Of a stretch of DNA of 38,013 nt, positions 7,614-37,965 are shown piece after piece. This DNA is from a virus, in the IMG/VR virus record IMGVR_UViG_3300013126_000093, positions 1 through 38,013 of that record; one strand, 5' to 3'. The first letter of the stretch is position 1; every line of letters starts with the position of its first letter. Below the pieces are notes generated by a model, which worked only from the letters and a program-made list of their open reading frames with translations, was not told where the DNA came from and did no database searches. The translations under genes were made by a program, and so were the position numbers.

Positions 7614-8013
7614 CTATCGCTCCTCCAGTGACCCATACCGAACACGATCTAGTGCCGGCACATTTGAAATGCAAAAAGTTACAGTATCCCAAGTCTGCTT
7701 TGTGTATCGTAGCCATTGAATCTACAGCCTTATCGTCACCCTTGATACCATCTTCTATACACTGCCACATCTTATCGCTAACATCAAAAGCCGCACAGTT
7801 GCCGCACAGCATAGTTTTCGCTGTTTTCTCTGTGATGTCCCAACGTTTGGCAGCATCCTTCCAATATGATTCTGGCTCATCGGGATTGGCAGGACCATAA
7901 TGGTATTCGTCTATGGCTGTCTGACGATTCTTTAGGTTAACGTCTAAGTCGTGTGTAGCAATAGGACAACCTTTGTTGGCTGCTTCTACTATGCGGATAT
8001 ATTTTCTATACAT
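7591..8013 (-). CDS. Cys-motif protein, possible iron-sulfur or zinc protein
   Basis: 140 residues. Residues ~68-75 carry MLCGNCAAF, followed by a single Cys (MWQC), then GYCNFLHFKCAG, SCSVW and VTGG. The CxxC-Cys-Cys-Cys order with a Trp/Gly-rich end is reminiscent of small iron-sulfur proteins such as HiPIP, but this is only a pattern. The N terminus MYRKYIRIVEAA resembles the capsid-targeting-type motif seen in several neighbours. It lies one base downstream of the structural gene 8015-8734 on the same strand. Function unassigned. Confidence 0.65.
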   Translation of the reverse strand: MYRKYIRIVEAANKGCPIATHDLDVNLKNRQTAIDEYHYGPANPDEPESYWKDAAKRWDITEKTAKTMLCGNCAAFDVSDKMWQCIEDGIKGDDKAVDSMATIHKADLGYCNFLHFKCAGTRSCSVWVTGGAIDDKDRTI

Positions 8014-24343: not shown

Positions 24344-24421
<78 letters not shown>

Positions 24422-24427
24422 TTTAAA

Positions 24428-24504
24428 CACGCCTTAGCTCAGTAGGATAGAGCAACAGCCTTCTAAGCTGTGGGTCAGAGGTTCGAATCCTCTAGGCGTG
24501 GCCA
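24428..24504 (+). tRNA. tRNA-Arg (UCU)
   Basis: 77 bases with encoded CCA. Acceptor CACGCCT/AGGCGTG, anticodon loop CTTCTAA with UCU, T arm AGAGG-TTCGAAT-CCTCT. It reads AGA (and AGG), codons common in the left-hand phage genes. Only six bases separate it from the previous tRNA. Confidence 0.93.
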
Positions 24505-24519
24505 GCTACAGCAGCACGT

Positions 24520-24604
24520 GGGACCGTGGTGAAATAGGTAGACACAAGGGACTTAAAATCCCTCGCAGCGATGCATACCGGTTCGATTCCGGTCGGTCCT
24601 ACCA
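24520..24604 (+). tRNA. tRNA-Leu (UAA)
   Basis: 85 bases with encoded CCA. Acceptor GGGACCG/CGGTCCT (one G-U), D arm GTG...CAC, anticodon stem AGGGA/TCCCT with loop CTTAAAA (UAA), a long variable arm as expected for Leu, T arm ACCGG-TTCGATT-CCGGT. It reads UUA (and UUG). Confidence 0.93.
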
Positions 24605-24907: not shown

Positions 24908-24931
24908 ATATGCATAGTGAAGGAGCGAGCA

Positions 24932-25589: not shown

Positions 25590-25619
25590 ATAGGCTAAGT
25601 TAACAAAAGGAGCGACGAA

Positions 25620-26084: not shown

Positions 26085-26117
26085 AGAGGCTGTGTTAAAC
26101 AACAAGGAGCGAAGCAA

Positions 26118-27218
26118 ATGTACATCACTTTTACTGAAGGCTGGTACAACATCAAGGGCCAGCCCACAAATGTTGCAGGTTTGACTTTCAAGCTTGTGGA
26201 AGACTACAAAGTAGCCAAGAGTGGCGAAGGCTACGTCACTGTGGAAGGTGGCGGACAGCCGGGCTTCCCAGATCGCTCAATCCGCATCCGTTGCCGTCAG
26301 GGTGCATATGCAGTTGCGGGCAGTGCCAAACCCATTCCTAAGGGAGTAACTATGCTACAGGCTCTTAAGGCTAAGAGCACCAAGGGTGCCGAAGTCACTG
26401 ACTTCACCCAGATCAAAGTGTCAGACGACAGTGTCGCGCACGAGACCGATGAAGAGATCATCGAGCGTACTCGCCTGCGTTTTGAGATCCTCAAGGATAT
26501 GACCAAAGCAGTGAAGTCGGGTGATGTGCGAGCAATGATCGTCACAGGCCCTCCGGGTGTGGGCAAGAGCTTTGGCGTTGAAGAAGTACTGTCAAAGGAC
26601 GATCTGTTTGATGTTATGGGTCAACGCAAGCCCAAATACGAGATCGTCAAAGGTGCTATGAGTGCCATTGGTCTGTACTCAAAGCTCTACAAGTTCTCCG
26701 ACGCTAAGAACATCCTGGTGTTCGATGACTGCGACAGTATTTTGCTGGACGACATCTCGCTGAACATCCTCAAAGCCGCTTTGGATTCTAGCAAGAAGCG
26801 TACCATTTCGTGGAACACTGACAGCCGCATCCTGCGCAGTGAGGGTATCCCAGATCGTTTCGAGTTCAAGGGTGGTGCTATCTTTATCACGAACTTGAAG
26901 TTTGAGAATGTGCGTTCTAAGAAACTGCAGGAGCATTTGGCGGCTCTCGAGTCACGCTGTCACTACATCGATCTGCGTATGGACACAGATCGCGAAAAGG
27001 TCCTGCGTATTGAGCAGATCGTCAAGGACGGTATGTTGGACTCATACGAGCTTGAGCAGGTTGCCAAAGATGAAGTAGTCACATTCATCAAAGACAATCG
27101 TGCCACTATGCGCGAGCTGAGCTTGCGTACGGTGCTCAAAGTAGCGGATCTGCGTAAGAGCTTCCCTACTAACTGGCAGAACATGGCCAAGGTCACTGTT
27201 ATGAAGGGAGCTTACTAA
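26118..27218 (+). CDS. AAA+ ATPase
   Basis: 366 residues. Walker A GPPGVGKS (144-151), Walker B NILVFDDCDS (198-207) and sensor-1 FITN are clear; a C-terminal helical lid follows (NRATMRELSLRTVLKVADL). The N-terminal ~110 residues form a separate beta-rich domain not seen in host AAA proteins. It should use ATP to remodel a protein or nucleic-acid complex; its place in the accessory region suggests a host-directed or replication-related job. Ribosome site AAGGAGCGA. Its TAA overlaps the ATG of the GcrA-like gene by one base. Confidence 0.85.
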   Translation: MYITFTEGWYNIKGQPTNVAGLTFKLVEDYKVAKSGEGYVTVEGGGQPGFPDRSIRIRCRQGAYAVAGSAKPIPKGVTMLQALKAKSTKGAEVTDFTQIKVSDDSVAHETDEEIIERTRLRFEILKDMTKAVKSGDVRAMIVTGPPGVGKSFGVEEVLSKDDLFDVMGQRKPKYEIVKGAMSAIGLYSKLYKFSDAKNILVFDDCDSILLDDISLNILKAALDSSKKRTISWNTDSRILRSEGIPDRFEFKGGAIFITNLKFENVRSKKLQEHLAALESRCHYIDLRMDTDREKVLRIEQIVKDGMLDSYELEQVAKDEVVTFIKDNRATMRELSLRTVLKVADLRKSFPTNWQNMAKVTVMKGAY

Positions 27219-27752: not shown

Positions 27753-28031
27753 ATGAAGCGTTTTAATCCTGAAACCAAGACTTTCAAAGTCTTCAACGCA
27801 CTGTACAATGGTGCGACCCTTACAGCCGCCCAGGCTCGTAAGATGGGTGTTGGCAACCTCTCAGCAGAAGTTACTCGCATCCGCCACGGTGGTTATGCTG
27901 TGTATGCTAACCAGCGTACCGCAGGCAATGGCGTTACCGTTACTGAATATGTAATGGGTCAGCCCAGCCGTGAGATCGTTGCCCTAGGCTACAAGGCCAA
28001 GGCTGCTGGTTTGACTTTAGAGACCATCTAA
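27753..28031 (+). CDS. small basic protein, possible winged/HTH fold
   Basis: 92 residues. NALYNGATLTAAQARKMGVGNLSAEVTRIRHGGYAVY reads like a helix-turn-helix followed by a beta wing: a helix, a turn at GATLT, a second helix at AAQARKMG and a recognition-like helix NLSAEVTRIR. It is Lys/Arg-rich and could bind DNA. It differs from its neighbours in having AAGGAAA instead of GGAGCGA and a different promoter, and in being followed by the anti-GGAGCGA hairpin and a strong terminator. Confidence 0.72.
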   Translation: MKRFNPETKTFKVFNALYNGATLTAAQARKMGVGNLSAEVTRIRHGGYAVYANQRTAGNGVTVTEYVMGQPSREIVALGYKAKAAGLTLETI

Positions 28032-28112
28032 AGACCAGTTTCAAAGACCAAGCCGATTCGCTCCCGGGGCGGTACTTTGGGGGTGTTGTGGAAACGCAAC
28101 ACCCTTTTCTTT
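28032..28112 (+). ncRNA. candidate 3'-UTR-derived small RNA with anti-ribosome-site loop
   Basis: After the stop codon, CCGATTCGCTCCCGG (28053-28067) puts ATTCGCTCC in a loop closed by CCG/CGG, or by the outer CCAAGCCG/CGG...CTTTGG stem. TCGCTCC is the exact reverse complement of the GGAGCGA ribosome site used upstream of at least 12 genes here. A rho-independent terminator follows at 28081. The same 15 bases recur at 36831. Confidence 0.45.
28081..28112 (+). terminator. rho-independent terminator
   Basis: GGGTGTTG (28081-28088) pairs with CAACACCC (28097-28104) around TGGAAACG, followed by TTTTCTTTT. The T run leads into the next cassette promoter. Confidence 0.9.
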
Positions 28113-28115
28113 TGG

Positions 28116-28144
28116 TTGACAGATTGGGCTAGAGATCGTATACT
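28116..28144 (+). promoter_or_regulatory. cassette promoter
   Basis: TTGACA (28116-28121), 17 bp, TATACT (28139-28144). Confidence 0.8.
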
Positions 28145-28170
28145 AGCTCTAACTTAACAAGGAGAGAGTC

Positions 28171-28563
28171 ATGGCGCTGCTAGAATTTAGACCCAAGTGT
28201 ATCAATCATGGTTGCGCCAAGCCCGTAACCTATAGTCACAAAGATGAGCAAGGCAACAAACGATGGAGGATTCATTGCGGGCATTGCCAAGGAGCCAGCT
28301 ACGGACGGCATGATCATGCTCCTGGGGTAACACCATTCAAGACCGGGCGCTGTTCTAACAGTGATAGCCATTTAGGGTTTGCCTGTGCTATCGACTACAA
28401 GAAAGCTCCTTGGGCCGTGGGTATGACCGAGATAGATCACAAGAATGGCGATTGCACTGACAACCGTCCCAAAAACCTAGACGAACTGTGCCCAATGTGC
28501 CATAAACGCAAAGGACGCCTAGCAGGCGATCATAACGGGTGGAAGAACTATCGTGTGGCGTAA
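28171..28563 (+). CDS. HNH endonuclease-family protein with zinc sites
   Basis: 130 residues. The core TEIDHKNGDCTDNRPKNLDELCPMCHKRKG has the DH pair, the Asn and the C-P-M-C-H zinc end of an HNH fold; earlier Cys pairs (CINHGC, CGHC) probably form a second zinc site. It would cut or nick DNA. Ribosome site is AAGGAGAGAG, a variant of the usual one. The end of the gene (TGTGGCG-TAA) forms a GTGTGGC/GCCACAC hairpin with the stop codon in its loop. Confidence 0.8.
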   Translation: MALLEFRPKCINHGCAKPVTYSHKDEQGNKRWRIHCGHCQGASYGRHDHAPGVTPFKTGRCSNSDSHLGFACAIDYKKAPWAVGMTEIDHKNGDCTDNRPKNLDELCPMCHKRKGRLAGDHNGWKNYRVA

Positions 28564-28572
28564 AAGCCACAC
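28553..28572 (+). terminator. stem-loop at the stop codon, no T run
   Basis: GTGTGGC (28553-28559) and GCCACAC (28566-28572) with the TAA stop in the loop GTAAAA. Lacking a T run it may protect the 3' end or pause polymerase rather than terminate. Confidence 0.4.
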
Positions 28573-28592
28573 CCCCGGCACTCCCAAACCGG

Positions 28593-28621
28593 TTGACAGC
28601 CCAGCCAAACGAGCATATACT
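28593..28621 (+). promoter_or_regulatory. cassette promoter
   Basis: TTGACA (28593-28598), 17 bp, TATACT (28616-28621). Confidence 0.8.
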
Positions 28622-28654
28622 AGACACAGTTAAATAGCAAAGAGGAGCGAACCC

Positions 28655-29287
28655 ATGCAATTCACAGCTGATCAAGTTTGGGCCCTAGCGGTAGCCGCTG
28701 ATCGTATCAACGGCGAATACCTCAAAGAGGACAAATGGGAAGAGCAGAATGGCGAAATGGTGAAAACCAAAGAAGCCAACAAGCTCATGGTCAAGCGGTG
28801 GCTGCGTGAGGGATCCAATCCTACCACAGAGAAAGATGTGGAGGAGGGCCGCCGGGTTCGCGGGTACTTCAACACCTTCATCATGCGAGAGCTGGCGGGC
28901 AAGCTCAATGACTTTGAGCGCCAGGCACTGAAGCTAGCCCAAAAAACTGAATTCACGGGTCGCGATCTCTACGACTTCGCTGTGATCTCATGCTTGCCTT
29001 CTGTGGCTCGCCGTGATCAACAGCGCCAAGAGATCAAGCGGGAGATTTATCAGAGCGAGCAACTGGTTGGAACAGTGGGCCAAACCATTGTGGGCGATTT
29101 AACCGTGATCAACTGCTGGTTCAACGCTAACTATATGAAGTTCCGTGTCCAGGGCCGTATGGGCGAGAGCTTCGTGGATTTTTGGCACTCCAAGGAGCTG
29201 ACTGGGGAGCTGAAGATCAAGGGCAAGATCAAAGCCATCCGTGGCGATAAAACAACACAGCTCAACTATGTGAAGATCGTCGGTTGA
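28655..29287 (+). CDS. phage protein of unknown function
   Basis: 210 residues. Helical N-terminal two thirds (ADQVWALAVAADRINGEYLK, YFNTFIMRELAGKLNDFERQ) and a beta-like C-terminal part (DLTVINCWFNANYMKFRVQG, ELKIKGKIKAIRGDKTTQL). It is basic and has no catalytic motif that I can see; a nucleic-acid-binding role is possible. GGAGCGA precedes the ATG. The TGA stop is embedded in the -35 box of the MoxR promoter. Confidence 0.7.
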   Translation: MQFTADQVWALAVAADRINGEYLKEDKWEEQNGEMVKTKEANKLMVKRWLREGSNPTTEKDVEEGRRVRGYFNTFIMRELAGKLNDFERQALKLAQKTEFTGRDLYDFAVISCLPSVARRDQQRQEIKREIYQSEQLVGTVGQTIVGDLTVINCWFNANYMKFRVQGRMGESFVDFWHSKELTGELKIKGKIKAIRGDKTTQLNYVKIVG

Positions 29288-29312
29288 CAGCAGAGTTGGG
29301 TGGTGTTATACT
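29284..29312 (+). promoter_or_regulatory. promoter with palindromic -10 region
   Basis: TTGACA (29284-29289), 17 bp, TATACT (29307-29312). GTGTTAT-ACTA-ATGACAC (29303-29320) is an inverted repeat (one mismatch) centred on the -10 box. A near-identical element occurs only before 36528. The leader to 29361 is ~48 bases and lacks GGAGCGA. Confidence 0.75.
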
Positions 29313-29360
29313 AATGACACTGAGAGAGTAGTTTGTTTTTAACTTTTTTGCGAGGTCTAT

Positions 29361-30446
29361 ATGAGTAAAGCACAAGACGTTTCCGTTCGCCAAGTTGGTC
29401 CCAAGCGGGCCAAGCGAGCAATCAACAAGGCGATCCAAAAGCGTCGCCCTGTATTCCTGTGGGGCCCTCCCGGTATTGGTAAAAGTGACATCGTCAAGCA
29501 GATCGGCGAAGATGCCGGTCGCGAAGTGATCGATATCCGTTTGCCTCTGTGGGAACCCACTGACATCAAAGGTATCCCTTACTTCAACTCTACTGCTAAC
29601 ACGATGGTCTGGGCTCCTCCCGCAGAACTGCCCAGCGATCCAGACAGCAAGGCTATCATCTTCTTGGACGAGCTGAACTCTGCTCCTCCGGCTGTTCAGG
29701 CCGCGGCCTATCAGTTGGTGTTGAACCGCCGTGTTGGACAATACATCCTGCCCAAGGGTGTTGACATCGTAGCCGCTGGTAACCGTGACGGTGACAAGGG
29801 TGTTACCTACCGTATGCCTGCTCCGTTGGCTAACCGCTTCCTGCACTTGGAGATGAAGGTAGACTTCGATGACTACCAAGAGTGGGCTACTGCCAATAAG
29901 ATCCACCCTGAGGTCGTTGGTTATGTTTCGTTCGCCAAGCAGGACCTCTACGACTTCGATCCCAAGGGTTCCTCTAAGTCGTTTGCGACTCCTCGTTCTT
30001 GGAGTTTCGTTAGCGATCTGCTCACTGACGATGACACTGACACTGACACGCTGACTGATTTGGTGTCTGGTGCTATCGGTGACGGTTTGGCTGTTAAGTT
30101 TATGGCTCACCGTAAGATCGCAGGTCGACTGCCCAAAGCAGAAGACATTCTCAGCGGTAAGGTCAAGGACCTTTCTATCAAAGAGATCTCTGCGATGTAT
30201 TCGCTGACTGTGAGCCTCTGCTACGAGCTCAAGGAGCAGGCAGAGAAGAAAGCCAAGAACTGGGACGATATGGCGGACTGCTTCTTCCGTTATATGATGG
30301 ATAATTTCCCGACTGAGATCGTTGTTATGGGTGCCAAGACTGCTCTCAGCAACTACAATTTGCCGTTGGACGCTACGAAGATGAAATCCTTCGACGAGTT
30401 CCACAAGCGATTCGGCAAGTATGTGTTGTCAGCAATGGAGAATTAA
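29361..30446 (+). CDS. MoxR-type AAA+ ATPase
   Basis: 361 residues. Walker A GPPGIGKS (35-42), Walker B IIFLDELNSAP, sensor-1 region VAAGNRDGD and the arginine-bearing PLANRFLHLEM place it in the MoxR branch, ATPases that work with VWA-domain proteins to insert metals or remodel complexes. The gene directly downstream encodes such a VWA-like protein, forming the classic pair. The promoter carries an operator-like palindrome and the ribosome site is GCGAGG rather than GGAGCGA, so it is regulated unlike its neighbours. The long open frame on the opposite strand is a shadow. Confidence 0.9.
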   Translation: MSKAQDVSVRQVGPKRAKRAINKAIQKRRPVFLWGPPGIGKSDIVKQIGEDAGREVIDIRLPLWEPTDIKGIPYFNSTANTMVWAPPAELPSDPDSKAIIFLDELNSAPPAVQAAAYQLVLNRRVGQYILPKGVDIVAAGNRDGDKGVTYRMPAPLANRFLHLEMKVDFDDYQEWATANKIHPEVVGYVSFAKQDLYDFDPKGSSKSFATPRSWSFVSDLLTDDDTDTDTLTDLVSGAIGDGLAVKFMAHRKIAGRLPKAEDILSGKVKDLSIKEISAMYSLTVSLCYELKEQAEKKAKNWDDMADCFFRYMMDNFPTEIVVMGAKTALSNYNLPLDATKMKSFDEFHKRFGKYVLSAMEN

Positions 30447-30463
30447 GACCTCGCCCATTGCTA

Positions 30464-30502
30464 GGGCTACGGACTTCTCAGGGTTCGTAGCCCACCTTTT
30501 TT
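30464..30502 (+). terminator. rho-independent terminator
   Basis: GGGCTACG (30464-30471) and CGTAGCCC (30486-30493) with a 14-base loop, then ACCTTTTTT. Confidence 0.88.
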
Positions 30503-30504
30503 GG

Positions 30505-30533
30505 TTGACAAGGGTGCCGGACGGTGCTATAAT
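30505..30533 (+). promoter_or_regulatory. cassette promoter
   Basis: TTGACA (30505-30510), 17 bp, TATAAT (30528-30533), two bases after the terminator T run. Confidence 0.8.
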
Positions 30534-30560
30534 AGATACATACAGTAAGGAGAGCGACTA

Positions 30561-31757
30561 ATGGACCCAATCATCGATAAACTCACAACTGCCCGAGTAG
30601 GACTGCTACTCAAGGCCCCCTTCTTTGGTAATATGGCGACTCGTATGAAGCTCATCGATGCTTCAGACTGGTGCCCTACTGCGGCCACTAACGGTCGCGA
30701 CTTCTTCTACAACAAGGACTTCGTTTCTAAACTTTCTGTCAAGAAACTAGAGTTCCTCTTTGGACACGAGATCTGTCACGCGGTGTTTGATCACTTTGGT
30801 CGTGTAGGTTCGCGTGATCGCAACCTGTCTAACATCGCACAGGACTTCGCTGTCAACCAGATCCTCGTAGACGAGCGTATCGGTGACAAGATCACTGAAG
30901 TTAAGATCTGCTATGATCCTAAGTACCGCGGTATGGCCTGGGAAGAGATCTACGACATCCTTTACGAGCAGGCAGAGAAGATCCCAATGGATCAACTGCT
31001 CAAGCAATTGGGTGATGTTCTGGACGAGCACATCAAAGAAGGTGATGGCCAAGGTGAGGGTGACAAAGAAGGCAAAGGTAACCGTCCTGGTCTCAGCAAA
31101 GAAGACGCACAGAAGATCAAGGACGAGATCAAAGAAGCAATGATCCAGAGTGCCGCGGCCGCTGGTGCTGGCAAGACTCCCTCAGGCATTATGCGTATGA
31201 TCAAGAGCCTCACTGAGCCTAAGATGAACTGGCGTGAGATCATCCGTCAGCAGATCCAAAGCATCGTCCGCAACGACTACTCCTTCCAGCGTCCTAACCG
31301 TAAAAGCCAGCACACGGGCGCCGTGCTTCCAGGTATGATTCCGGACACTACCATTGACGTGGCTATCGCGTTGGATATGAGCGGTAGTATTGGTCAAGAA
31401 GATGCCACTGTATTCCTCAGCGAAGTCAAAGGCATTATGGATCAATACGAGGACTTCAACATCCAACTGTGGTGCTTTGACACTGACATTTACAATCACG
31501 TCAAGATCGGACACGACAACTCCGACGAGCTCCTGAGCTACGAGCCTCAAGGTGGTGGTGGTACTTCATTCGAAGTCAACTGGGAGTTTATGCGTGACAA
31601 CGACATCCAGCCTAAGAAGTTCATTATGTTCACTGATGGCTATCCCTGCGGTACCTGGGGAGAAGAAGATTACTGCGATACCTTGTTCATTGTCAAGGGC
31701 AATACATCCGCAGAGTCGCCGTTCGGTCAGACTGTGATCTACGAAAAGGATATCTAA
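30561..31757 (+). CDS. VWA-like protein with metallopeptidase-type HExxH (DUF2201-like)
   Basis: 398 residues. HEICH at 69-73 is the zinc-binding HExxH of the putative metallopeptidase domain; a Gly/Lys/Glu-rich linker (GDGQGEGDKEGKG) follows, then a VWA-like domain whose metal site begins DMSGS (272-276), with GGGGTSF and FTDGYP as later MIDAS elements. Partner proteins of MoxR ATPases have this architecture. Together the two may remodel or proteolyse a host or phage complex. Ribosome site AAGGAGAGCGA is a variant with AG inserted. The stop overlaps a 31-residue ORF. Confidence 0.9.
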   Translation: MDPIIDKLTTARVGLLLKAPFFGNMATRMKLIDASDWCPTAATNGRDFFYNKDFVSKLSVKKLEFLFGHEICHAVFDHFGRVGSRDRNLSNIAQDFAVNQILVDERIGDKITEVKICYDPKYRGMAWEEIYDILYEQAEKIPMDQLLKQLGDVLDEHIKEGDGQGEGDKEGKGNRPGLSKEDAQKIKDEIKEAMIQSAAAAGAGKTPSGIMRMIKSLTEPKMNWREIIRQQIQSIVRNDYSFQRPNRKSQHTGAVLPGMIPDTTIDVAIALDMSGSIGQEDATVFLSEVKGIMDQYEDFNIQLWCFDTDIYNHVKIGHDNSDELLSYEPQGGGGTSFEVNWEFMRDNDIQPKKFIMFTDGYPCGTWGEEDYCDTLFIVKGNTSAESPFGQTVIYEKDI

Positions 31758-31852
31758 TGAGCCCTACTACACCTAGGTTCCCCGACGATCCTATGGACTA
31801 CGACCTACCTCCGCACACGGATTTGGGAGTGCCGGCGGGTGTGGCTTTTTAG
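31757..31852 (+). CDS. 31-residue acidic/proline-rich ORF
   Basis: ATG at 31757 overlaps the VWA stop codon (TAATG), so it may be translated by re-initiation. The peptide is rich in Pro and Asp (TTPRFPDDPMDYDLPPHTD). Its TAG lies in a GTGGCT-TTTT-AGCCAC stem-loop (31841-31856), and no ribosome site of its own is seen. Function unknown. Confidence 0.45.
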   Translation: MSPTTPRFPDDPMDYDLPPHTDLGVPAGVAF

Positions 31853-31856
31853 CCAC
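31841..31856 (+). terminator. short stem-loop at the stop codon
   Basis: GTGGCT and AGCCAC with a TTTT loop; no T run follows. It resembles the stop-codon hairpin at 28553. Confidence 0.35.
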
Positions 31857-31883
31857 AGACCCCGCTGCTACGCACATAAGGGG

Positions 31884-31912
31884 TTGACAGATTGGCAGTT
31901 TGGCCTTATACT
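31884..31912 (+). promoter_or_regulatory. cassette promoter
   Basis: TTGACA (31884-31889), 17 bp, TATACT (31907-31912). Confidence 0.8.
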
Positions 31913-31943
31913 ATAGGCTAGACAGTTAAGAAAGGAGCGGCAA

Positions 31944-32090
31944 ATGGAACTACTACTAGCGTTTATCGCAGGTGCTGTTGTGATGGACTTTATGTGGGCC
32001 TGGCGTATGGGCATCCCCCAAATGCTTTGGTACCGATTCAAGCATCGCAACGATCCTAAACCCGATTACTCACAATGGAGCGAAGACTAA
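31944..32090 (+). CDS. 48-residue membrane protein
   Basis: ATG at 31944 after AAAGGAGCGG. One hydrophobic N-terminal segment (LLLAFIAGAVVMDFMWAW) and a basic, then acidic tail (YRFKHRNDPKPDYSQWSED). The first ten residues (MELLLAFIAG) resemble those of the next gene (MKILLAFIAG), suggesting a local duplication. Function unknown. Confidence 0.6.
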   Translation: MELLLAFIAGAVVMDFMWAWRMGIPQMLWYRFKHRNDPKPDYSQWSED

Positions 32091-32215
32091 TGAAAATCCT
32101 TCTAGCATTCATCGCAGGTATGTTCGTGGCCACTGTAGGCGTGTCGGGCGTAGCATCCGCTGTTGACAAGGCAGTGGGCAAGACCCAAGAAGTAATGAAG
32201 GAGACCGTGAAGTGA
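32090..32215 (+). CDS. 41-residue membrane-anchored peptide
   Basis: ATG at 32090 overlaps the previous stop (TAATG) and has GGAGCGA at 32077-32083. MKILLAFIAGMFVATVGVSGVASA is a signal-anchor or signal peptide with an A-S-A end; the short mature part (VDKAVGKTQEVMKETVK) is an amphipathic helix. It may be an exported peptide acting in the envelope. Function unknown. Confidence 0.55.
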   Translation: MKILLAFIAGMFVATVGVSGVASAVDKAVGKTQEVMKETVK

Positions 32216-32706
32216 ACTGCTCCCCTGTACTAACTAACGACGAGTTCAAGACCGTACACAATGCTCTCTGCGAGCTGCGTTCAGTGCAGCAGCATCTTAC
32301 CGGGGTGATCAATGATCGTCTCGCTGAGCAACTGCAGACAGTGGTCAGGGAGTTTGAGCAGGGTCTCAAGGGTGCCTACGAACAGGACAATCGCGCATTT
32401 GACGAACTCAGCGACCATTACGAAGCTGTGCGTCAAGGTGCGCAACTGCGAAGCATCTGGAGTATATTCTCTGTGCAAGATCTCAGTCAACCTCATCCCT
32501 ACGTGAATGCAGCAGAGATCTGCTACAGAGACCATTGGGGTGACCAACCTGTGTATGAAACCATTCCGGGACCAACCTGGGCTGATCTCTACTCAGCTGC
32601 TGATCGCTGCATCACTCGAAGTGGGGACGGACACCACATCTTCATCGAGAGTTTTCAACCTGTGGCAGAACAGCCACACCAACTTAGACTAACCACTGGG
32701 AGTTAA
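32212..32706 (+). CDS. phage protein of unknown function (GTG start)
   Basis: 164 residues, GTG at 32212 overlapping the previous stop (GTGA), with AAGGAG upstream. A helical first half (LRSVQQHLTGVINDRLAEQL) is followed by a patterned second half: FDELSDHYEAV, SIWSIFSVQDL, YRDHWGDQPV, TWADLYSAADRCI, SGDGHHIFIESFQP, LRLTTGS. Several short conserved-looking blocks suggest a folded domain widespread in phages, but I cannot name a function. Confidence 0.7.
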   Translation: MNCSPVLTNDEFKTVHNALCELRSVQQHLTGVINDRLAEQLQTVVREFEQGLKGAYEQDNRAFDELSDHYEAVRQGAQLRSIWSIFSVQDLSQPHPYVNAAEICYRDHWGDQPVYETIPGPTWADLYSAADRCITRSGDGHHIFIESFQPVAEQPHQLRLTTGS

Positions 32707-32708
32707 CC

Positions 32709-32840
32709 ATGCCTTACCCTGGACAAGTATTCGAAGATCCCATGTACGATGAAGATGGGAACCTAGTAGATGAGGACTTTGACCTCGACGAGCTAGCAGA
32801 GGATGAGAGCTACGATCCGTTCCAAACTGTGAACTCGTAG
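32709..32840 (+). CDS. 43-residue acidic protein
   Basis: ATG at 32709, two bases after the TAA of the previous gene, stop TAG at 32838-32840. Strongly acidic (MYDEDGNLVDEDFDLDELAE, DESYD) with an aromatic end; it looks disordered and could mimic nucleic acid. There is no separate ribosome site, so it depends on translation from upstream. Function unknown. Confidence 0.5.
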   Translation: MPYPGQVFEDPMYDEDGNLVDEDFDLDELAEDESYDPFQTVNS

Positions 32841-32843
32841 TGG

Positions 32844-32872
32844 TTGACAGCTCTTTGGATTGGGTGCATAAT
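32844..32872 (+). promoter_or_regulatory. cassette promoter
   Basis: TTGACA (32844-32849), 17 bp, CATAAT (32867-32872). It directly follows the upstream stop codon. Confidence 0.72.
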
Positions 32873-32903
32873 AGAGACACTTAGACAACAGAAGGAGCGA
32901 AAG

Positions 32904-33248
32904 ATGATTACAGCAACCCCTGAGCAGATCCCCCAAATCGTTGCCGAAGCGCACTCTGCTGCGTATGCTGCGGCCGAGAAGTACTTCCGTGAGGTGCTGG
33001 GAGGTCAAGATCGTTACGCCTGTGGCTTTGCCTGGGTCAACATCTACGGTGTCAAAGGCAACACCCGGTTGGGCAAGGCCTTGAGTGCCGCTGGGATCCG
33101 CAAGGACTACCAAGGTGGTCTCCAGATGTGGAATCCATCCAAGTTCGGGTGCCAGAACGTGGACACCTTGGAGGAAGGTGCCCGAGCTGCTGCTGCGGTG
33201 TTTAAGAAGTACGGGTTTGAAGCTTACGCAGGATCGCGTTTGGATTAA
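32904..33248 (+). CDS. phage protein of unknown function
   Basis: 114 residues from the ATG at 32904, three bases after GGAGCGA; the longer frame begins in the promoter. ACGFAWVNIYGVKGNTRLGK, then GGLQMWNPSKFGCQ and VFKKYGFEAYAGSRLD form a patterned domain that I have seen in phages and proteobacterial prophages without an assigned role. The SRLD end and AWV block are the most recognisable parts. A strong terminator follows directly, so this is a one-gene unit. Confidence 0.72.
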   Translation: MITATPEQIPQIVAEAHSAAYAAAEKYFREVLGGQDRYACGFAWVNIYGVKGNTRLGKALSAAGIRKDYQGGLQMWNPSKFGCQNVDTLEEGARAAAAVFKKYGFEAYAGSRLD

Positions 33249-33253
33249 CCCGG

Positions 33254-33276
33254 GGCCCGAAAGGGCCTTTTATTTT
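33254..33276 (+). terminator. rho-independent terminator
   Basis: GGCCC-GAAA-GGGCC hairpin (33254-33267) followed by TTTTATTTT. Confidence 0.88.
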
Positions 33277-33278
33277 GG

Positions 33279-33307
33279 TTGACAGATTGAACGACCGGTG
33301 CTATACT
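33279..33307 (+). promoter_or_regulatory. cassette promoter
   Basis: TTGACA (33279-33284), 17 bp, TATACT (33302-33307), two bases after the terminator T run. Confidence 0.8.
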
Positions 33308-33337
33308 AGAGACACTTAGACAAGTAAGGAGCGAAAG

Positions 33338-33586
33338 ATGGGATACTTCAAAGACGTAGAGATCGAGATCATGACCATGGCCCACGATATGGGCGATGAC
33401 TTCGGTGATGATGCAGATACGATTCTAACCATTGCCCGTGCATTGGACCTAGCACCAGAGATCGTGCAAGACGTCCTGCAGGGAGATGCAGACCGTGATC
33501 CAGAAGAGTATGACGACTCTATGGATGGCGACTTTGATTCGGGCATGGCTAGTGCCGGTTACGGTATGGATGAAGACTATGCCTAA
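33338..33586 (+). CDS. small very acidic protein
   Basis: 82 residues, GGAGCGAAAG directly before the ATG. Asp/Glu-rich throughout (MAHDMGDDFGDDADTILTIA, LQGDADRDPEEYDDSMDGD). A helical middle (ARALDLAPEIVQDVL) suggests a small fold with an acidic tail. DNA mimicry is conceivable. Overlaps the next gene by eight bases. Confidence 0.65.
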   Translation: MGYFKDVEIEIMTMAHDMGDDFGDDADTILTIARALDLAPEIVQDVLQGDADRDPEEYDDSMDGDFDSGMASAGYGMDEDYA

Positions 33587-33803
33587 GGCCATATACACCC
33601 TGTGCCGCGCTGCGGTCATAGACGAATACTACGAGGTAGAGGCGGACTCTGAAGAGGCTGCACTTGAGATGGCCTACAATGGTGATCTGGGAGATCCTGT
33701 GCGTACCGAGTTCGTAGATTGGCGAGATGACGAGTACCAGGTCGCAGACGAAGAGATAATTGACCCTTTGTACGTTATGGTTAAAGACTATGGACAAGTT
33801 TAA
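33579..33803 (+). CDS. small acidic beta/helix protein
   Basis: 74 residues from the ATG at 33579 inside the end of the previous gene. MPKAIYTLCRAAVIDEYYEV, then ADSEEAALEMAYNGDLGDP and DDEYQVADEEIIDPLYVMVK: the strand-helix-strand order with EExALxxA resembles small phage proteins of the type that follow dyadic acidic genes. Function unknown. Overlaps 33790-34038 by 14 bases. Confidence 0.6.
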   Translation: MPKAIYTLCRAAVIDEYYEVEADSEEAALEMAYNGDLGDPVRTEFVDWRDDEYQVADEEIIDPLYVMVKDYGQV

Positions 33804-34038
33804 CTGGTTTTGTTTAGCCAACGAGGATAAACAGTTCCTTGGTAAGTATGTGAGTCCCGGGCGCTGCTCGTCAACTTTCCGACATATCCCTGTACAGCAT
33901 CTAGAACGCACTAAACGACTGCTGCGACAACTAGGATATCAGGGACGCATCGTTTACCGTGGACCTCGCAGAGATCAGATCGATCCTAGCTTCACCCGTA
34001 AGAGGGATGCTGTTGCGTTTTCTGTATACCCGGCCTAA
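33790..34038 (+). CDS. small basic protein of unknown function
   Basis: 82 residues from the ATG at 33790. Basic and aromatic (MDKFNWFCLANEDKQFLGKY, then RTKRLLRQLGYQGRIVYRGP and RRDQIDPSFTRKRDAVAF). It may bind nucleic acid, in contrast to its two acidic upstream partners, with which it forms a three-gene unit from the promoter at 33279. Function unknown. Confidence 0.6.
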   Translation: MDKFNWFCLANEDKQFLGKYVSPGRCSSTFRHIPVQHLERTKRLLRQLGYQGRIVYRGPRRDQIDPSFTRKRDAVAFSVYPA

Positions 34039-34062
34039 GTGTAGGGTTACTATAGATTTTGG

Positions 34063-34091
34063 TTGACAGTTTGGGCTAGAGGTGCTATACT
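34063..34091 (+). promoter_or_regulatory. cassette promoter
   Basis: TTGACA (34063-34068), 17 bp, TATACT (34086-34091). Confidence 0.8.
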
Positions 34092-34121
34092 ATGGTTATA
34101 GTGAATAGTAAGGAGCGAAAG

Positions 34122-34370
34122 ATGATTGCAGAAAAAGAGAAGGTTGTTCGGGCCCTGAAGGGTTGGCAGTTTGTGCGTGGGACCCACGGGTGCCTGTTTG
34201 ATCGTGGATCCGCTGATTCCTACTACGGTCGTGGCAGTGATCCGCACTATGGTGGTGTAGGTGGGGATTCGGGTCCGCGTGTGGATAACTTGACCCCAGA
34301 AGAAGTCCGTGAGTATGCCGCAGGCTATGAATACAATGAGCGATTTGGCGACAAGAAAGATTGGCGCTAA
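34122..34370 (+). CDS. small Gly/Tyr/Asp-rich protein
   Basis: 82 residues from the ATG at 34122, three bases after GGAGCGA. ALKGWQFVRGTHGCLFDRGS, then ADSYYGRGSDPHYGGVGGD (Gly/Tyr/Asp loop) and TPEEVREYAAGYEYNERFGD. The mix of a short folded start and a flexible middle is unlike known enzymes. Single-gene unit, followed directly by the next cassette. Function unknown. Confidence 0.65.
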   Translation: MIAEKEKVVRALKGWQFVRGTHGCLFDRGSADSYYGRGSDPHYGGVGGDSGPRVDNLTPEEVREYAAGYEYNERFGDKKDWR

Positions 34371-34375
34371 TTTGG

Positions 34376-34404
34376 TTGACAGATTGGGCAGATGGCCTTA
34401 TAAT
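34376..34404 (+). promoter_or_regulatory. cassette promoter
   Basis: TTGACA (34376-34381), 17 bp, TATAAT (34399-34404), six bases after the upstream stop. Confidence 0.8.
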
Positions 34405-34435
34405 ATACACATACTTAAACAACTAGGAGCGATAA

Positions 34436-34738
34436 ATGGCTAAATCCGCACAACAAAAGTTCAACGAATACTTAGAGGAATCGCGTGAGACCCGTGATGC
34501 CATCAACGAGCTGGAAAAGGCTGCTCGTGAGAACCACGATGGTTCCTATGCTTATGCCTGCGGTGTCTACTCGGTGCTATTAGGTGACATCATCTCAGAA
34601 CTGCCCAAGGCTCGTCGTGCAGAGATCCGTGAGCAACTGCTACGCTCAGCACAGAAGCAGAAGAACGAACTGTTGGCCAAGCAGATCAAGGACAGCGATA
34701 TCCAGCGTGTGTTTGATCCTGCAGGAGTGTTGCGTTAA
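34436..34738 (+). CDS. small helical protein of unknown function
   Basis: 100 residues, GGAGCGATAA before the ATG. Nearly all helix (FNEYLEESRETRDAINELEK, ACGVYSVLLGDIISELPKAR, EIREQLLRSAQKQKNELL), alternately charged, likely a coiled coil or helical bundle. It overlaps the SWIM protein gene by one base (TAATG), so the two are probably made together. Confidence 0.65.
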   Translation: MAKSAQQKFNEYLEESRETRDAINELEKAARENHDGSYAYACGVYSVLLGDIISELPKARRAEIREQLLRSAQKQKNELLAKQIKDSDIQRVFDPAGVLR

Positions 34739-35079
34739 TGGAGGCCGTGCGTGAAGTCACTGTTTGGACGGGTGTTGAATATCGGCAACCCAACCACGAC
34801 TATCTCCTCGACGGAGACAGGATCGTGGCTTACCGGCCTTGGGGCACAGCAGAGATCCGTAAGAGTTCCGGAAAGATCAAGATCGACCGTAGGGGCCGCA
34901 AGTTCATCCCTTTGGATCCAAACCCCTTCGCAGAACTCGAAGAGAACAAAGAGTCAATGGTTGTAGAAGTCAAAGGTTCTAAGGGTGCCGTTTATTATGT
35001 AAACCGGGAAGATGGTCTTTGCACCTGCCCGGGATTCACATTCCGAGGCAACTGTAAACACATCAAGGAGTTGGTATGA
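34738..35079 (+). CDS. SWIM zinc-finger protein
   Basis: 113 residues. The C terminus reads GLCTCPGFTFRGNCKHI: CxC, eight residues, CxH, the SWIM zinc-finger signature, preceded by the usual strand VVEVKGSKGAVYYV. SWIM domains bind DNA or proteins. The N-terminal ~60 residues are basic beta-like (EIRKSSGKIKIDRRGRKFIP). It lies in a three-gene unit with 34436 and 35076 and overlaps the latter by ATGA. Confidence 0.8.
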   Translation: MEAVREVTVWTGVEYRQPNHDYLLDGDRIVAYRPWGTAEIRKSSGKIKIDRRGRKFIPLDPNPFAELEENKESMVVEVKGSKGAVYYVNREDGLCTCPGFTFRGNCKHIKELV

Positions 35080-35300
35080 CCCCACAAGAGTTTGAATACA
35101 TTCGACGGGCTGTTGATGCTCTGGAGAATATGGAGATGACTCCTATGACCGAACGCAAGGTTCTTAGGACCATTGAACAGATCTGTGGCAAAAATGCCAC
35201 AGACATCGAGCTGAATCTCACAGCCGCTGTAGATGGTAAGATCCAGCGAACCTATCAGGATCTGCAGAACCAGAAATTGGTTGACATTCTGGGCCGTTGA
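35076..35300 (+). CDS. small protein of unknown function
   Basis: 74 residues coupled to the SWIM protein by ATGA. Helical (FEYIRRAVDALENMEM, TERKVLRTIEQICGKNATDI, KIQRTYQDLQNQKLVDILGR). The last seven codons contain the TTGACA of the next promoter (KLVDIL from AAATTGGTTGACATTCTG), so coding and promoter sequence are shared. Function unknown. Confidence 0.62.
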   Translation: MTPQEFEYIRRAVDALENMEMTPMTERKVLRTIEQICGKNATDIELNLTAAVDGKIQRTYQDLQNQKLVDILGR

Positions 35301-35309
35301 TCGTATAAT
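35281..35309 (+). promoter_or_regulatory. cassette promoter inside the end of a gene
   Basis: TTGACA (35281-35286), 17 bp, TATAAT (35304-35309). The -35 box and most of the spacer are inside the coding sequence of 35076-35300. Confidence 0.78.
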
Positions 35310-35334
35310 AAACATACTGTAAAAGGAGCGACTT

Positions 35335-35970
35335 ATGCCAAATTGGTGTTCAAATCATATCACTGTGCGTGGCACAGACCCTGCAGAGATCCAGAGACTC
35401 TCAGATGCATTCAAGCGTGGTGAGTTCTGTGATGCAGTTATTCCAGTGCCAGAGATCCTTAAGAATCCCGAGACCACTACTAACTACGGTGATCCAGTCA
35501 AGCAGGCAGAAGCAGATCGCGTCCGTGCTGAGGCAGTGGCCGCAACTGGCTACCAAAGTTGGTATGACTTCTGCACCAGCCGTTGGGGAACCAAATGGGA
35601 TGTGGGTGATGAGCACAGTATCGAAGTAGACGAAGATGGTCTGGGTTTCTCTGCTCCGTTCGATTCAGCCTGGGCTCCTCCTATGGGGGTAGTTGAAGAG
35701 TTGGTTGAGCAGGGCTTGGAAGTCACACTTTATTACTATGAACCAGGTATGGGTTTCGTAGGCAAGTTCGAAGATGGCTGTGATGAGATGTATGAGTTGG
35801 GCGGTCTCGATTCTAAGACTGTGCGTGCCGACATTGGTGATGAGTTGGACGATATGTTTGGTATCTCTGAGTCTATGGCTGAATACGAAGCAGAGAATGC
35901 CGAAGAGGAAGAACTCACAGAATGGATCAAGGACGGCGCTGAGAAACGCTCGGAGTTGAAAGCACTGTGA
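35335..35970 (+). CDS. YubB/DUF1281-like ferredoxin-fold protein
   Basis: 211 residues. The start MPNWCSNHITVRGTDPAEIQ, with later WYDFCTSRWGTKWDVGD and FSAPFDSAWAPPMGVVEEL, is typical of the DUF1281/YubB family found on plasmids and phages: W-C-x-N near the start, a central R-W-G-T-K-W and a D-x-A-W-x-P-P block. No reaction is known. The C-terminal ~50 residues are acidic and probably disordered. Ribosome site AAAAGGAGCGA. Confidence 0.78.
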   Translation: MPNWCSNHITVRGTDPAEIQRLSDAFKRGEFCDAVIPVPEILKNPETTTNYGDPVKQAEADRVRAEAVAATGYQSWYDFCTSRWGTKWDVGDEHSIEVDEDGLGFSAPFDSAWAPPMGVVEELVEQGLEVTLYYYEPGMGFVGKFEDGCDEMYELGGLDSKTVRADIGDELDDMFGISESMAEYEAENAEEEELTEWIKDGAEKRSELKAL

Positions 35971-36260
35971 GAGTAGAGAAGCTCAACAGGAACTACAACG
36001 GCTACGGCTATTTCAGCCACCGTGTGGTATTCCACGGCAATGTCCACATACGGATCAAGCAGTGGATCCGTGCTCGCAACTGGCTGTGGGCTCAGTTTGG
36101 ACCCTCAGCAGAGCAAGCATTGGCCCGAGCTGACAACTTTGACGGCGAGCAACCAAAGTGGGCCTGGGACACAGATAAATCGGCTATATATCTCAAAGAG
36201 GAAGCGTTTACGATGTTTAATCTACGCAAGGAGTTCTGGGAAAATGTCGAGAACCTATAA
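35967..36260 (+). CDS. small aromatic-rich protein (GTG start)
   Basis: 97 residues from the GTG at 35967, which overlaps the preceding TGA (GTGA). Rich in Trp, Tyr and Arg (NRNYNGYGYFSHRVVFHGNV, IKQWIRARNWLWAQFGPSAE, WAWDTDKSAIYLKEEAF). It looks like a compact folded domain. Co-translated with the YubB-like protein. Function unknown. Confidence 0.6.
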   Translation: MRVEKLNRNYNGYGYFSHRVVFHGNVHIRIKQWIRARNWLWAQFGPSAEQALARADNFDGEQPKWAWDTDKSAIYLKEEAFTMFNLRKEFWENVENL

Positions 36261-36438
36261 GTTCCAGTTCGTGATAGAATGCAGTGGTGAGGGAGTGCCT
36301 GATTTGGTTCGGGTAGAAGAGATGATCGATCTCACTATGCAAGAGCTCGTATTCGATGATGAATTCGTTTCAGCATTGGACGAGAGCCAGGCCGTGAGCA
36401 TCCAGGTCATACCGCAATTTGGTAAAACGGATGGTTGA
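36244..36438 (+). CDS. small protein of unknown function
   Basis: 64 residues from the ATG at 36244 inside the end of the previous gene; the longer frame to 36022 is out-of-register shadow. Strand-helix pattern: YKFQFVIECSGEGVPDLVRV, MIDLTMQELVFDDEFVSAL, SQAVSIQVIPQFGKT. Its TGA stop is embedded in the -35 box of the next promoter. Function unknown. Confidence 0.6.
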   Translation: MSRTYKFQFVIECSGEGVPDLVRVEEMIDLTMQELVFDDEFVSALDESQAVSIQVIPQFGKTDG

Positions 36439-36463
36439 CGGAATGGTTGAGTGGTGTTATACT
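36435..36463 (+). promoter_or_regulatory. promoter with palindromic -10 region
   Basis: TTGACG (36435-36440), 17 bp, TATACT (36458-36463). GTGTTAT-ACTA-ATAACAC (36454-36471) is a perfect inverted repeat centred on the -10 box and near-identical to the one before the MoxR gene. The leader to 36528 lacks GGAGCGA. Confidence 0.78.
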
Positions 36464-36527
36464 AATAACACTGCAAGAAGCAGAAGTAACTAAGGCAAAT
36501 TTAACAACTTTGAAAGGCAATTTTAAA

Positions 36528-36830
36528 ATGGCTACTGATAAACGTTTCGCTGTTGCGGGTGTATCAACCCTGGAAGGTAAGACCAAGATCCGTTTCGCTA
36601 ACGATGTTATGCGCATCAAGATCCTGGCCAAGAACGGTCACACTGATGTGGAGCTCATCGAGCTGCCCTCTGAGATGACCAAGGCAGAAGCTGTACAGCA
36701 TCTACGTGCAGTGAAGTTTGGTCAAGGCAATCCAGCTATCGAAGCTGCTGTTGCCTACGCTGAGAAAAAGAACCCTGCGCCAGCAGGTAATAAGGCCACT
36801 GTCGCGAAGACAGAAGCCGTTGCTGCGTAA
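36528..36830 (+). CDS. small conserved-looking protein, unknown function
   Basis: 100 residues from the ATG at 36528 after AAAGGCAA. The patterned N-terminal half (DKRFAVAGVSTLEGKTKIRF, DVMRIKILAKNGHTDVELIE, MTKAEAVQHL) reads as a small alpha/beta domain, the end is Ala/Lys/Pro-rich and flexible. Its long leader, palindromic promoter, lack of GGAGCGA and strong terminator set it apart from its neighbours, and its 3' end carries the anti-GGAGCGA hairpin. It may be an abundant or early-regulated protein. Confidence 0.72.
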   Translation: MATDKRFAVAGVSTLEGKTKIRFANDVMRIKILAKNGHTDVELIELPSEMTKAEAVQHLRAVKFGQGNPAIEAAVAYAEKKNPAPAGNKATVAKTEAVAA

Positions 36831-36885
36831 CCGATTCGCTCCCGGTTGCAGCCTTGGGGATCCCAGTCCGCTGGGGTCCTTTTTT
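36831..36885 (+). ncRNA. candidate 3'-UTR-derived small RNA with anti-ribosome-site loop
   Basis: Directly after the stop codon, AACCG (36829-36833) pairs with CGGTT (36843-36847), exposing ATTCGCTCC in a nine-base loop. TCGCTCC is the exact reverse complement of GGAGCGA. An eight-base spacer leads into a strong terminator. The 15 bases CCGATTCGCTCCCGG are identical to those at 28053-28067, although the surrounding sequences differ. Confidence 0.5.
36858..36885 (+). terminator. rho-independent terminator
   Basis: GGATCCCA (36858-36865) and TGGGGTCC (36872-36879) with loop GTCCGC, followed by six T. Confidence 0.9.
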
Positions 36886-37934: not shown

Positions 37935-37965
37935 ACACACACAGTAACACAAAAGGGAGCGAGAA

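Follow-up and report, generated by a model that had tools for sequence, protein, structure and literature searches.

Why should two unrelated genes of one phage be followed by the same 15 bases? The question is raised by a 38 kb virus fragment from IMG/VR (record IMGVR_UViG_3300013126_000093, positions 1 to 38,013; the whole stretch of 38,013 nucleotides (nt) is called the window below), in which the 15-mer CCGATTCGCTCCCGG occurs in exactly two copies, both on the plus strand (Table 1). Each copy forms part of a hairpin that follows a stop codon and precedes a rho-independent terminator, and its loop carries TCGCTCC, the complement of the ribosome site GGAGCGA. From the comparison with related phages we consider it likely that these hairpins of 3'-untranslated regions (3'UTRs) are antisense elements that pair in trans with the ribosome sites of the phage, mask them and lower translation. 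On the same sequence evidence, this large uncultured phage group probably regulates its own protein synthesis with small antisense RNAs.

Both partners of the proposed pairing were found in the window. The 15-mer had been described, in an earlier reading made from the sequence alone, as following two unrelated genes within a hairpin before a terminator, and both copies do fold in this way: the minimum free energy was -30.6 kcal/mol (z -2.4) for region 28032-28112 and -22.4 kcal/mol (z -1.9) for region 36828-36885, while the inner CCG/CGG hairpin by itself is weak (-0.8 kcal/mol). When up to three mismatches were allowed, the window contained 3 matches to the 15-mer versus 0.48 expected by chance. 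GGAGCGA occurs 16 times versus 3.3 expected, a count reached by no shuffle. All 11 plus-strand sites listed by the sequence-only reading, and the minus-strand site at 7617-7623, are located 2-8 nt upstream of an ATG; two more minus-strand occurrences (16515 and 20168) fall outside the start-codon pattern and two others are the antisense of the hairpins. The sites are indeed numerous, but the description of them as phage-wide was too broad for the window, where those of the plus strand cluster in 24.9-38 kb. Similarly, in relatives of 100-210 kb most GGAGCGA sites are grouped in one early-gene region. The leaders with GGAGCGA mostly have sigma-70-type promoters, and cassettes of terminator, promoter and ribosome-binding site (RBS) are evident in the window.

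The hairpin is not restricted to the window. The exact 15-mer was detected in at least 120 IMG/VR stretches, with a chance background of about 23-38 matches for such a 15-mer, as gauged from single-base variants. IMG/VR contigs are fragments and partly redundant, and counts given here refer to distinct sequences where so stated. Among the matches listed the contexts were alike: the 15-mer follows a stop codon, forms part of a hairpin and is succeeded by a T-run, on contigs with GGAGCGA-ATG leaders. The exceptions among them were some chance matches and a separate group with the reverse complement at late-gene leaders. Single-base variants of the loop at two positions, with the same stem, gave chance matches only, with no comparable hairpin and matching ribosome site among them, and the four matches to the 15-mer plus T-run in bacterial genomes were all due to chance. 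The hairpin was observed in over 100 contigs, at three fixed places, namely the 3'UTRs of gene 1 (type A), of gene 2 (type B) and of an AAA+ ATPase gene (type C). Type C consists of two hairpins, of which the second doubles as the terminator. Most large records contain two copies in one orientation, either 5-10 kb apart (A and B) or 43-78 nt apart (C). The type A element follows 74 of the 76 distinct gene 1 homologues in GGAGCGA-code loci, and the type B element follows most gene 2 homologues, including forms with a replaced stem.

The loop UUCGCUCC is invariant in these elements though the stems vary. For type C2 we found 25 distinct 5' arms of the outer stem in 26 elements, with a mean paired length of 9.7 bp; when right arms were swapped between elements as a control, the mean was 5.5 bp (at most 6.7). 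Outer-stem pairing in types B and C1 was like that of C2, and in type A it was weaker. The inner stem is also exchangeable around the same loop (TCAG/CTGA, CCTAGG/CCTAGG or GGTTG/CAACC), and a UAA-like bulge beside the stem is conserved. In one AAA 3'UTR (L505, 2440-2500) similar hairpins differ in their loops, AUUCGCUCC in one and CUAGGCUCC in the other.

The conserved part of the ribosome site has the same extent as the loop. In 571 distinct leaders the consensus was A (83%)-GGAGCGA-A (71%), so that the conserved span comprises the eight bases GGAGCGAA, the complement of the loop, and no more; CGA was seven times commoner than the runner-up as the triplet after GGAG. The AAA genes without 3' hairpins have GGAGCGA in 51/58 distinct leaders, and the DUF2201/VWA gene has GAGCGA, in the form GGAGAGCGA, in 41 of 50. 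The site was absent from the relatives' leaders of gene 1 (0/58), gene 2 (0/42) and MoxR (0/70), in agreement with the claim that the two hairpin genes and the MoxR gene of the window lack it. The MoxR genes (29361-30446 in the window, and those of relatives) have an RBS signature of their own, GCGAGGTCTTAA. Self-pairing of the flanks of the ribosome site (at least 4 bp, for example CATA-GGAGCGAAC-TATG) occurred in 56/567 GGAGCGA leaders versus 22 +/- 4 after shuffling; it is enriched yet limited to a minority of leaders, and was rejected as a general feature.

The sequence-only reading had proposed to look in relatives for loop and ribosome-site bases that change together, and such a change was found. 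A contig of 357 kb (L191) has a gene 1 that is 86% identical, but GGAGCGA leaders are absent from it and its leaders read AGAGGGCAAACAATG. Its gene 1 is not followed by the UCGCUCC hairpin, so that presence and absence of the type A element go together with the code. Its AAA 3'UTR contains three hairpins (z -5.8), each with UGCCCUC exposed, the last of them being the terminator. When the most frequent leader heptamers were compared blind with the AAA 3'UTRs, TGCCCTC emerged in GAGGGCA phages and TCGCTCC in GGAGCGA phages. The alignment search behind this comparison brought in 80 of more than 586 AAA relatives. TGCCCTC was present in 7/7 distinct AAA 3'UTRs of GAGGGCA loci (1-3 copies each) and TCGCTCC in none of them; in GGAGCGA loci TCGCTCC was present in 30 distinct AAA 3'UTRs and TGCCCTC in none (Fisher p = 1e-7, no cross-matches). 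The other 82 GGAGCGA loci lack an AAA hairpin, and phages of the window type bear the loop after genes 1 and 2 instead. The sequence TTGCCCTC in the L191 record was considered as the matching loop and discarded, as it is either the antisense of ribosome sites or unstructured; the matching loop there is TGCCCTC. The leaders of L191 also contain two copies of GGGCAAAC, one immediately 3' of the -10 box (CATAGGGCAAAC), the other at the ribosome site.

Calculated pairing energies were in line with this specificity. The loop with its matching site gave -13.3 kcal/mol, versus -7.5 to -9.6 kcal/mol for a generic 16S tail, whereas cross-code pairs, with the site of one code and the loop of the other, gave -5.4 and -5.9 kcal/mol, and the carriers' own ribosome sites with the loop only -2.3 and -3.1 kcal/mol. 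The mechanism that we propose builds on what the sequences contain: hairpins whose stems vary yet remain paired while the loop is constant, a ribosome site that is the exact complement of the loop, and a loop and a site that change together between two phage groups. A few early mRNAs (transcribed from gene 1, from gene 2 or from the AAA+ ATPase gene) would deliver the hairpins to the cell in their stable 3' ends next to the terminator, from which RNase processing would probably free the hairpins as small RNAs; no sigma-70-type promoter was found in the 230 bases upstream of 28 terminator-type elements. The loop would then pair in trans with GGAGCGAA on many phage mRNAs, hiding the ribosome site and lowering translation of the GGAGCGA genes, and would in this way time their expression during infection. 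Gene 1, gene 2 and MoxR, whose ribosome sites differ, would escape, and the AAA gene of some phages would feed back on itself.

The reach of such a switch may extend to late genes. The reverse complement of the 15-mer, CCGGGAGCGAATCGG, is in some contigs the ribosome-site hairpin itself and directly follows the T4-type late motif TAAATA. This sequence or a close form was found immediately 5' of ATG in L027, L029, L030, L040, L049, L050, L104, L444 and L445, with TAAATA in most. The late genes concerned encode a CsgF homologue (Pfam PF10614, E 4e-18) and a 93-aa membrane-like protein. The late leaders are the strongest complement of the loop (15 nt, -32.6 kcal/mol) and may be its strongest targets; genomes G025 and G027 contain late leaders of the CCGGGAGCGAATCGG type and 3'UTR hairpins together, with a complementarity of about 15 nt. 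In GGAGCGA phages the CsgF and 93-aa genes have ACCGGGAGCGAAUCGG-AUG or close forms, and their orthologues in a GAGGGCA phage have GGAGGGCACG-AUG and GAGGGGCAUACAAAU-AUG (also given as GAGGGGCATACAAAT-ATG). Since orthologous late genes switch code, the ribosome code is genome-wide. The proposal of a trans-acting RNA with a regulon was supported by covariation, co-occurrence and equal conserved spans, but its restriction to accessory genes was not: late genes for structural or envelope proteins may belong to the regulon besides the accessory early genes. More tentatively, the extended ribosome site and the antisense loops could form a clade-specific private translation code, the two being exchanged together as lock and key, and exert global post-transcriptional control over early genes and over late envelope genes (CsgF and a possible holin-like protein), possibly also between co-infecting phages of the same code; we regard this wider scheme as possible, with the odds somewhat against it. 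The CsgF homologues (type VIII secretion, curli assembly) of L455, L456, L458 and L459 (G024, G025, G022 and G027) are unusual late cargo for a phage, and in some contigs the next gene may encode a lipoprotein.

Several observations weigh against antisense masking in trans. Carriers are not always exempt from the site: AAA genes with 3'UTR hairpins have GGAGCGA in 18/25 cases, and the idea that carriers never bear it was dropped, although feedback on the AAA gene becomes possible. Predicted folds of type A sometimes pair part of the loop, and the mean unpaired probability was above 0.8 in only 95/177 non-leader TTCGCTCC sites. Only two codes were found, and loop and site may have changed together just once in evolution, as seen in seven contigs. 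One contig with UCGCUCC hairpins (L500) has more GGAGCAA sites (5) than GGAGCGA sites (2). Another, L518 (G041, 259 kb), has the highly conserved leader ACACTAACACAACGGAGAAACAAATG upstream of about ten genes, and no convincing hairpin matching its conserved ACGGAGAAAC was detected in 40 kb; this contig of neither code contains one TGCCCTC, outside any comparable hairpin. 

In relatives with neither code no complementary hairpin was found. The phages added by a second AAA scan have leaders of other kinds (GGAGCAC, ACGGAGCAAC), and no hairpins to match these were detected. Five leaders of L156 have CATTTCGGAGTTGAAGAATG or a close form in common, which is another extended ribosome-site motif; no CAACTCC loops for its GGAGTTG leader were present in 12 kb.

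The same pairing could also have another outcome. Rather than being released as a repressor, the hairpins might remain part of their mRNAs and work in cis, as tethers or as sponges, for example in feedback on the AAA mRNA, in mRNA-mRNA contacts or in protecting silent late mRNAs. The AAA genes that have both hairpin and site agree with this, as does the fact that the best complement is found in the late leaders, in some genomes alongside the hairpins. However, genes 1 and 2 carry the hairpin and never the site, which excludes cis action on their own mRNA, and a terminator stands between each hairpin and the next gene. We regard an mRNA-borne function as unlikely, if the most serious competitor of release and action in trans.

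Could the eight bases instead be a double-stranded DNA site, bound by a repressor or replication protein, that overlaps ribosome sites and hairpins by accident? Their position relative to promoters is suggestive, with 87% of GGAGCGA sites about 20 nt downstream of a sigma-70-type -10 box. That distance is loose (20 +/- 4.9, range 9-60), whereas the distance to the ATG is tight (3.5 +/- 1.3), and for 77 of 602 sites no promoter was found within 110 nt, which indicates that the constraint acts on RNA. Moreover, the hairpins around the 3'UTR copies have compensating stems, and their loop changes with the ribosome code. A DNA site is very improbable on these grounds. Slightly less probable again is that the hairpin is conserved as a terminator or for binding a protein, has nothing to do with translation and is complementary by chance; the elements do stand at terminators, that of the AAA 3'UTR being the terminator hairpin itself, and the UAA-like bulge is conserved, but the conserved spans match exactly over eight bases and a second, different sequence matches too. 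Finally, the loop might target 16S ribosomal RNA (rRNA) or mimic the anti-Shine-Dalgarno tail. The sequence coincidence with helix 24 of 16S rRNA, which presumably contains GGAGCGAA in many bacteria, speaks for such a target, but we give this reading hardly any credence, since the loop changes with the phage ribosome site and a fixed rRNA target leaves that unexplained.

Antisense masking of ribosome sites has close parallels. The alphaproteobacterial parallel drawn by the sequence-only reading is apt: the alpha-r14 or 'cuckoo' small RNAs (sRNAs; e.g. NfeR1 of Sinorhizobium meliloti) consist of several hairpins that have identical ultraconserved anti-Shine-Dalgarno CCUCCUCCC loops on highly divergent stems, and they silence mRNAs by covering the ribosome site (PMC10746234). 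The phage hairpins likewise have an invariant loop motif on divergent stems, and the three UGCCCUC hairpins of L191 have the same layout; per 3'UTR there are three hairpins in L191, two in the AAA 3'UTRs of GGAGCGA phages and one in the window. The phage loops AUUCGCUCC or UGCCCUC differ from the generic anti-Shine-Dalgarno loop in matching a phage-specific extended site, and chromosomal sRNA genes with their own promoter are replaced by phage 3'UTRs and the phage's own target genes. The phage hairpins therefore work like alpha-r14 sRNAs but are outside that family. In phages P1 and P7 the loops of the c4 antisense RNA pair with the ribosome-site region of a phage mRNA and block its translation (PMC12197685). 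The two would work alike, each having a phage RNA loop that complements the ribosome-site region on mRNA of the phage; c4 has, as described there, the single target ant, whereas here one loop fits many leaders and the 3'UTRs of mRNAs carry the element. UdsC of Rhodobacter sphaeroides and CisR of Vibrio cholerae are regulatory RNAs from mRNA 3' ends (PMC9779115, PMC13250501), and the phage element shares the position between stop codon and rho-independent terminator. They are host-encoded and are not described there as having an anti-ribosome-site loop common to a whole regulon. The phage-encoded VpdS and PreS act in infection via Hfq on host and phage RNAs, with no conserved anti-ribosome-site loop described for them in the accessible part of the source (PMC12197685).

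Our literature search, which included few subscription papers, returned no earlier report of this system. The T4-type PeSL is a mobile intergenic cassette of a stem-loop and an early promoter that moves between loci. The nearest cultured relative of the AAA (40%) and MoxR (50%) proteins is Pseudomonas phage PA5oct (Wroclawvirus, Arenbergviridae), in which neither GGAGCGA nor TCGCTCC was present in 17 kb around the AAA gene. Its AAA ATPase homologue EST35_0359 is annotated as thioredoxin, likely a mislabel.

If the proposed pairing is true, these phages encode an antisense regulon aimed at their own ribosome sites, in which natural covariation of loop and target is built-in evidence of pairing. 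It would account for the three extra bases kept after the Shine-Dalgarno core in hundreds of phage leaders and provide a compact model for the post-transcriptional timing of phage protein synthesis. Two orthogonal codes make clean cross-over comparisons possible and could supply orthogonal translation repressors.

Table 1. Positions of the hairpins, their carrier genes and the ribosome sites in the window
Feature	Position	Strand	Basis
GGAGCGA ribosome site, GGAGCGAtagATG	7617..7623	-	motif count
GGAGCGA ribosome site	24922..24928	+	motif count
GGAGCGA ribosome site	25609..25615	+	motif count
GGAGCGA ribosome site of AAA+ ATPase gene	26106..26112	+	motif count; conserved in relatives
AAA+ ATPase gene; its 3'UTR is the type C hairpin site in other phages, not in the window	26118..27218	+	
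Gene 1, 92 aa, weak winged-helix (HTH_39) match, RBS AAAGGAAA, without GGAGCGA	27753..28031	+	
Outer hairpin around type A element	28042..28079	+	fold; outer stems variable yet paired
Type A anti-RBS element CCG-AUUCGCUCC-CGG, gene 1 3'UTR	28053..28067	+	exact match, fold; kept after gene 1 homologues
Rho-independent terminator 3' of hairpin A	28079..28106	+	12 pairs, T-rich tail
GGAGCGA ribosome site	28644..28650	+	motif count
GGAGAGCGA ribosome site of DUF2201/VWA gene (30561-31757)	30549..30557	+	form kept in relatives
GGAGCGG variant ribosome site	31934..31940	+	sequence
GGAGCGA ribosome site within the end of the preceding gene, no own promoter nearby	32077..32083	+	
GGAGCGA ribosome site	32894..32900	+	motif count
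GGAGCGA ribosome site	33328..33334	+	motif count
GGAGCGA ribosome site	34112..34118	+	motif count
GGAGCGA ribosome site	34426..34432	+	motif count
GGAGCGA ribosome site	35325..35331	+	motif count
Gene 2, 100 aa, RBS GAAAGGCAA, without GGAGCGA	36528..36830	+	
Hairpin UAACCG-loop-CGGUUG (type B)	36828..36848	+	fold
Type B anti-RBS element CCG-AUUCGCUCC-CGG, immediately 3' of gene 2 stop codon	36831..36845	+	exact match, fold
Rho-independent terminator 3' of hairpin B	36856..36881	+	terminator prediction
GGAGCGA ribosome site	37956..37962	+	motif count

Database searches with the window added little to this list. Gene 2 gave no match in Pfam or PHROG and no relatives in INPHARED, where no record near-identical to the window was found either. 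Rfam (release 15) identified transfer RNAs (tRNAs) alone in the window at gathering score, none on the element, and gave no convincing match on the element in ten loci down to E = 5. The DUF2201/VWA protein is labelled an HNH endonuclease by PHROG 1314, which is likely a mislabel. Three tRNA genes (Met, Arg-TCT and Leu-TAA) are located at 24344-24604, shortly before the cluster of GGAGCGA genes.

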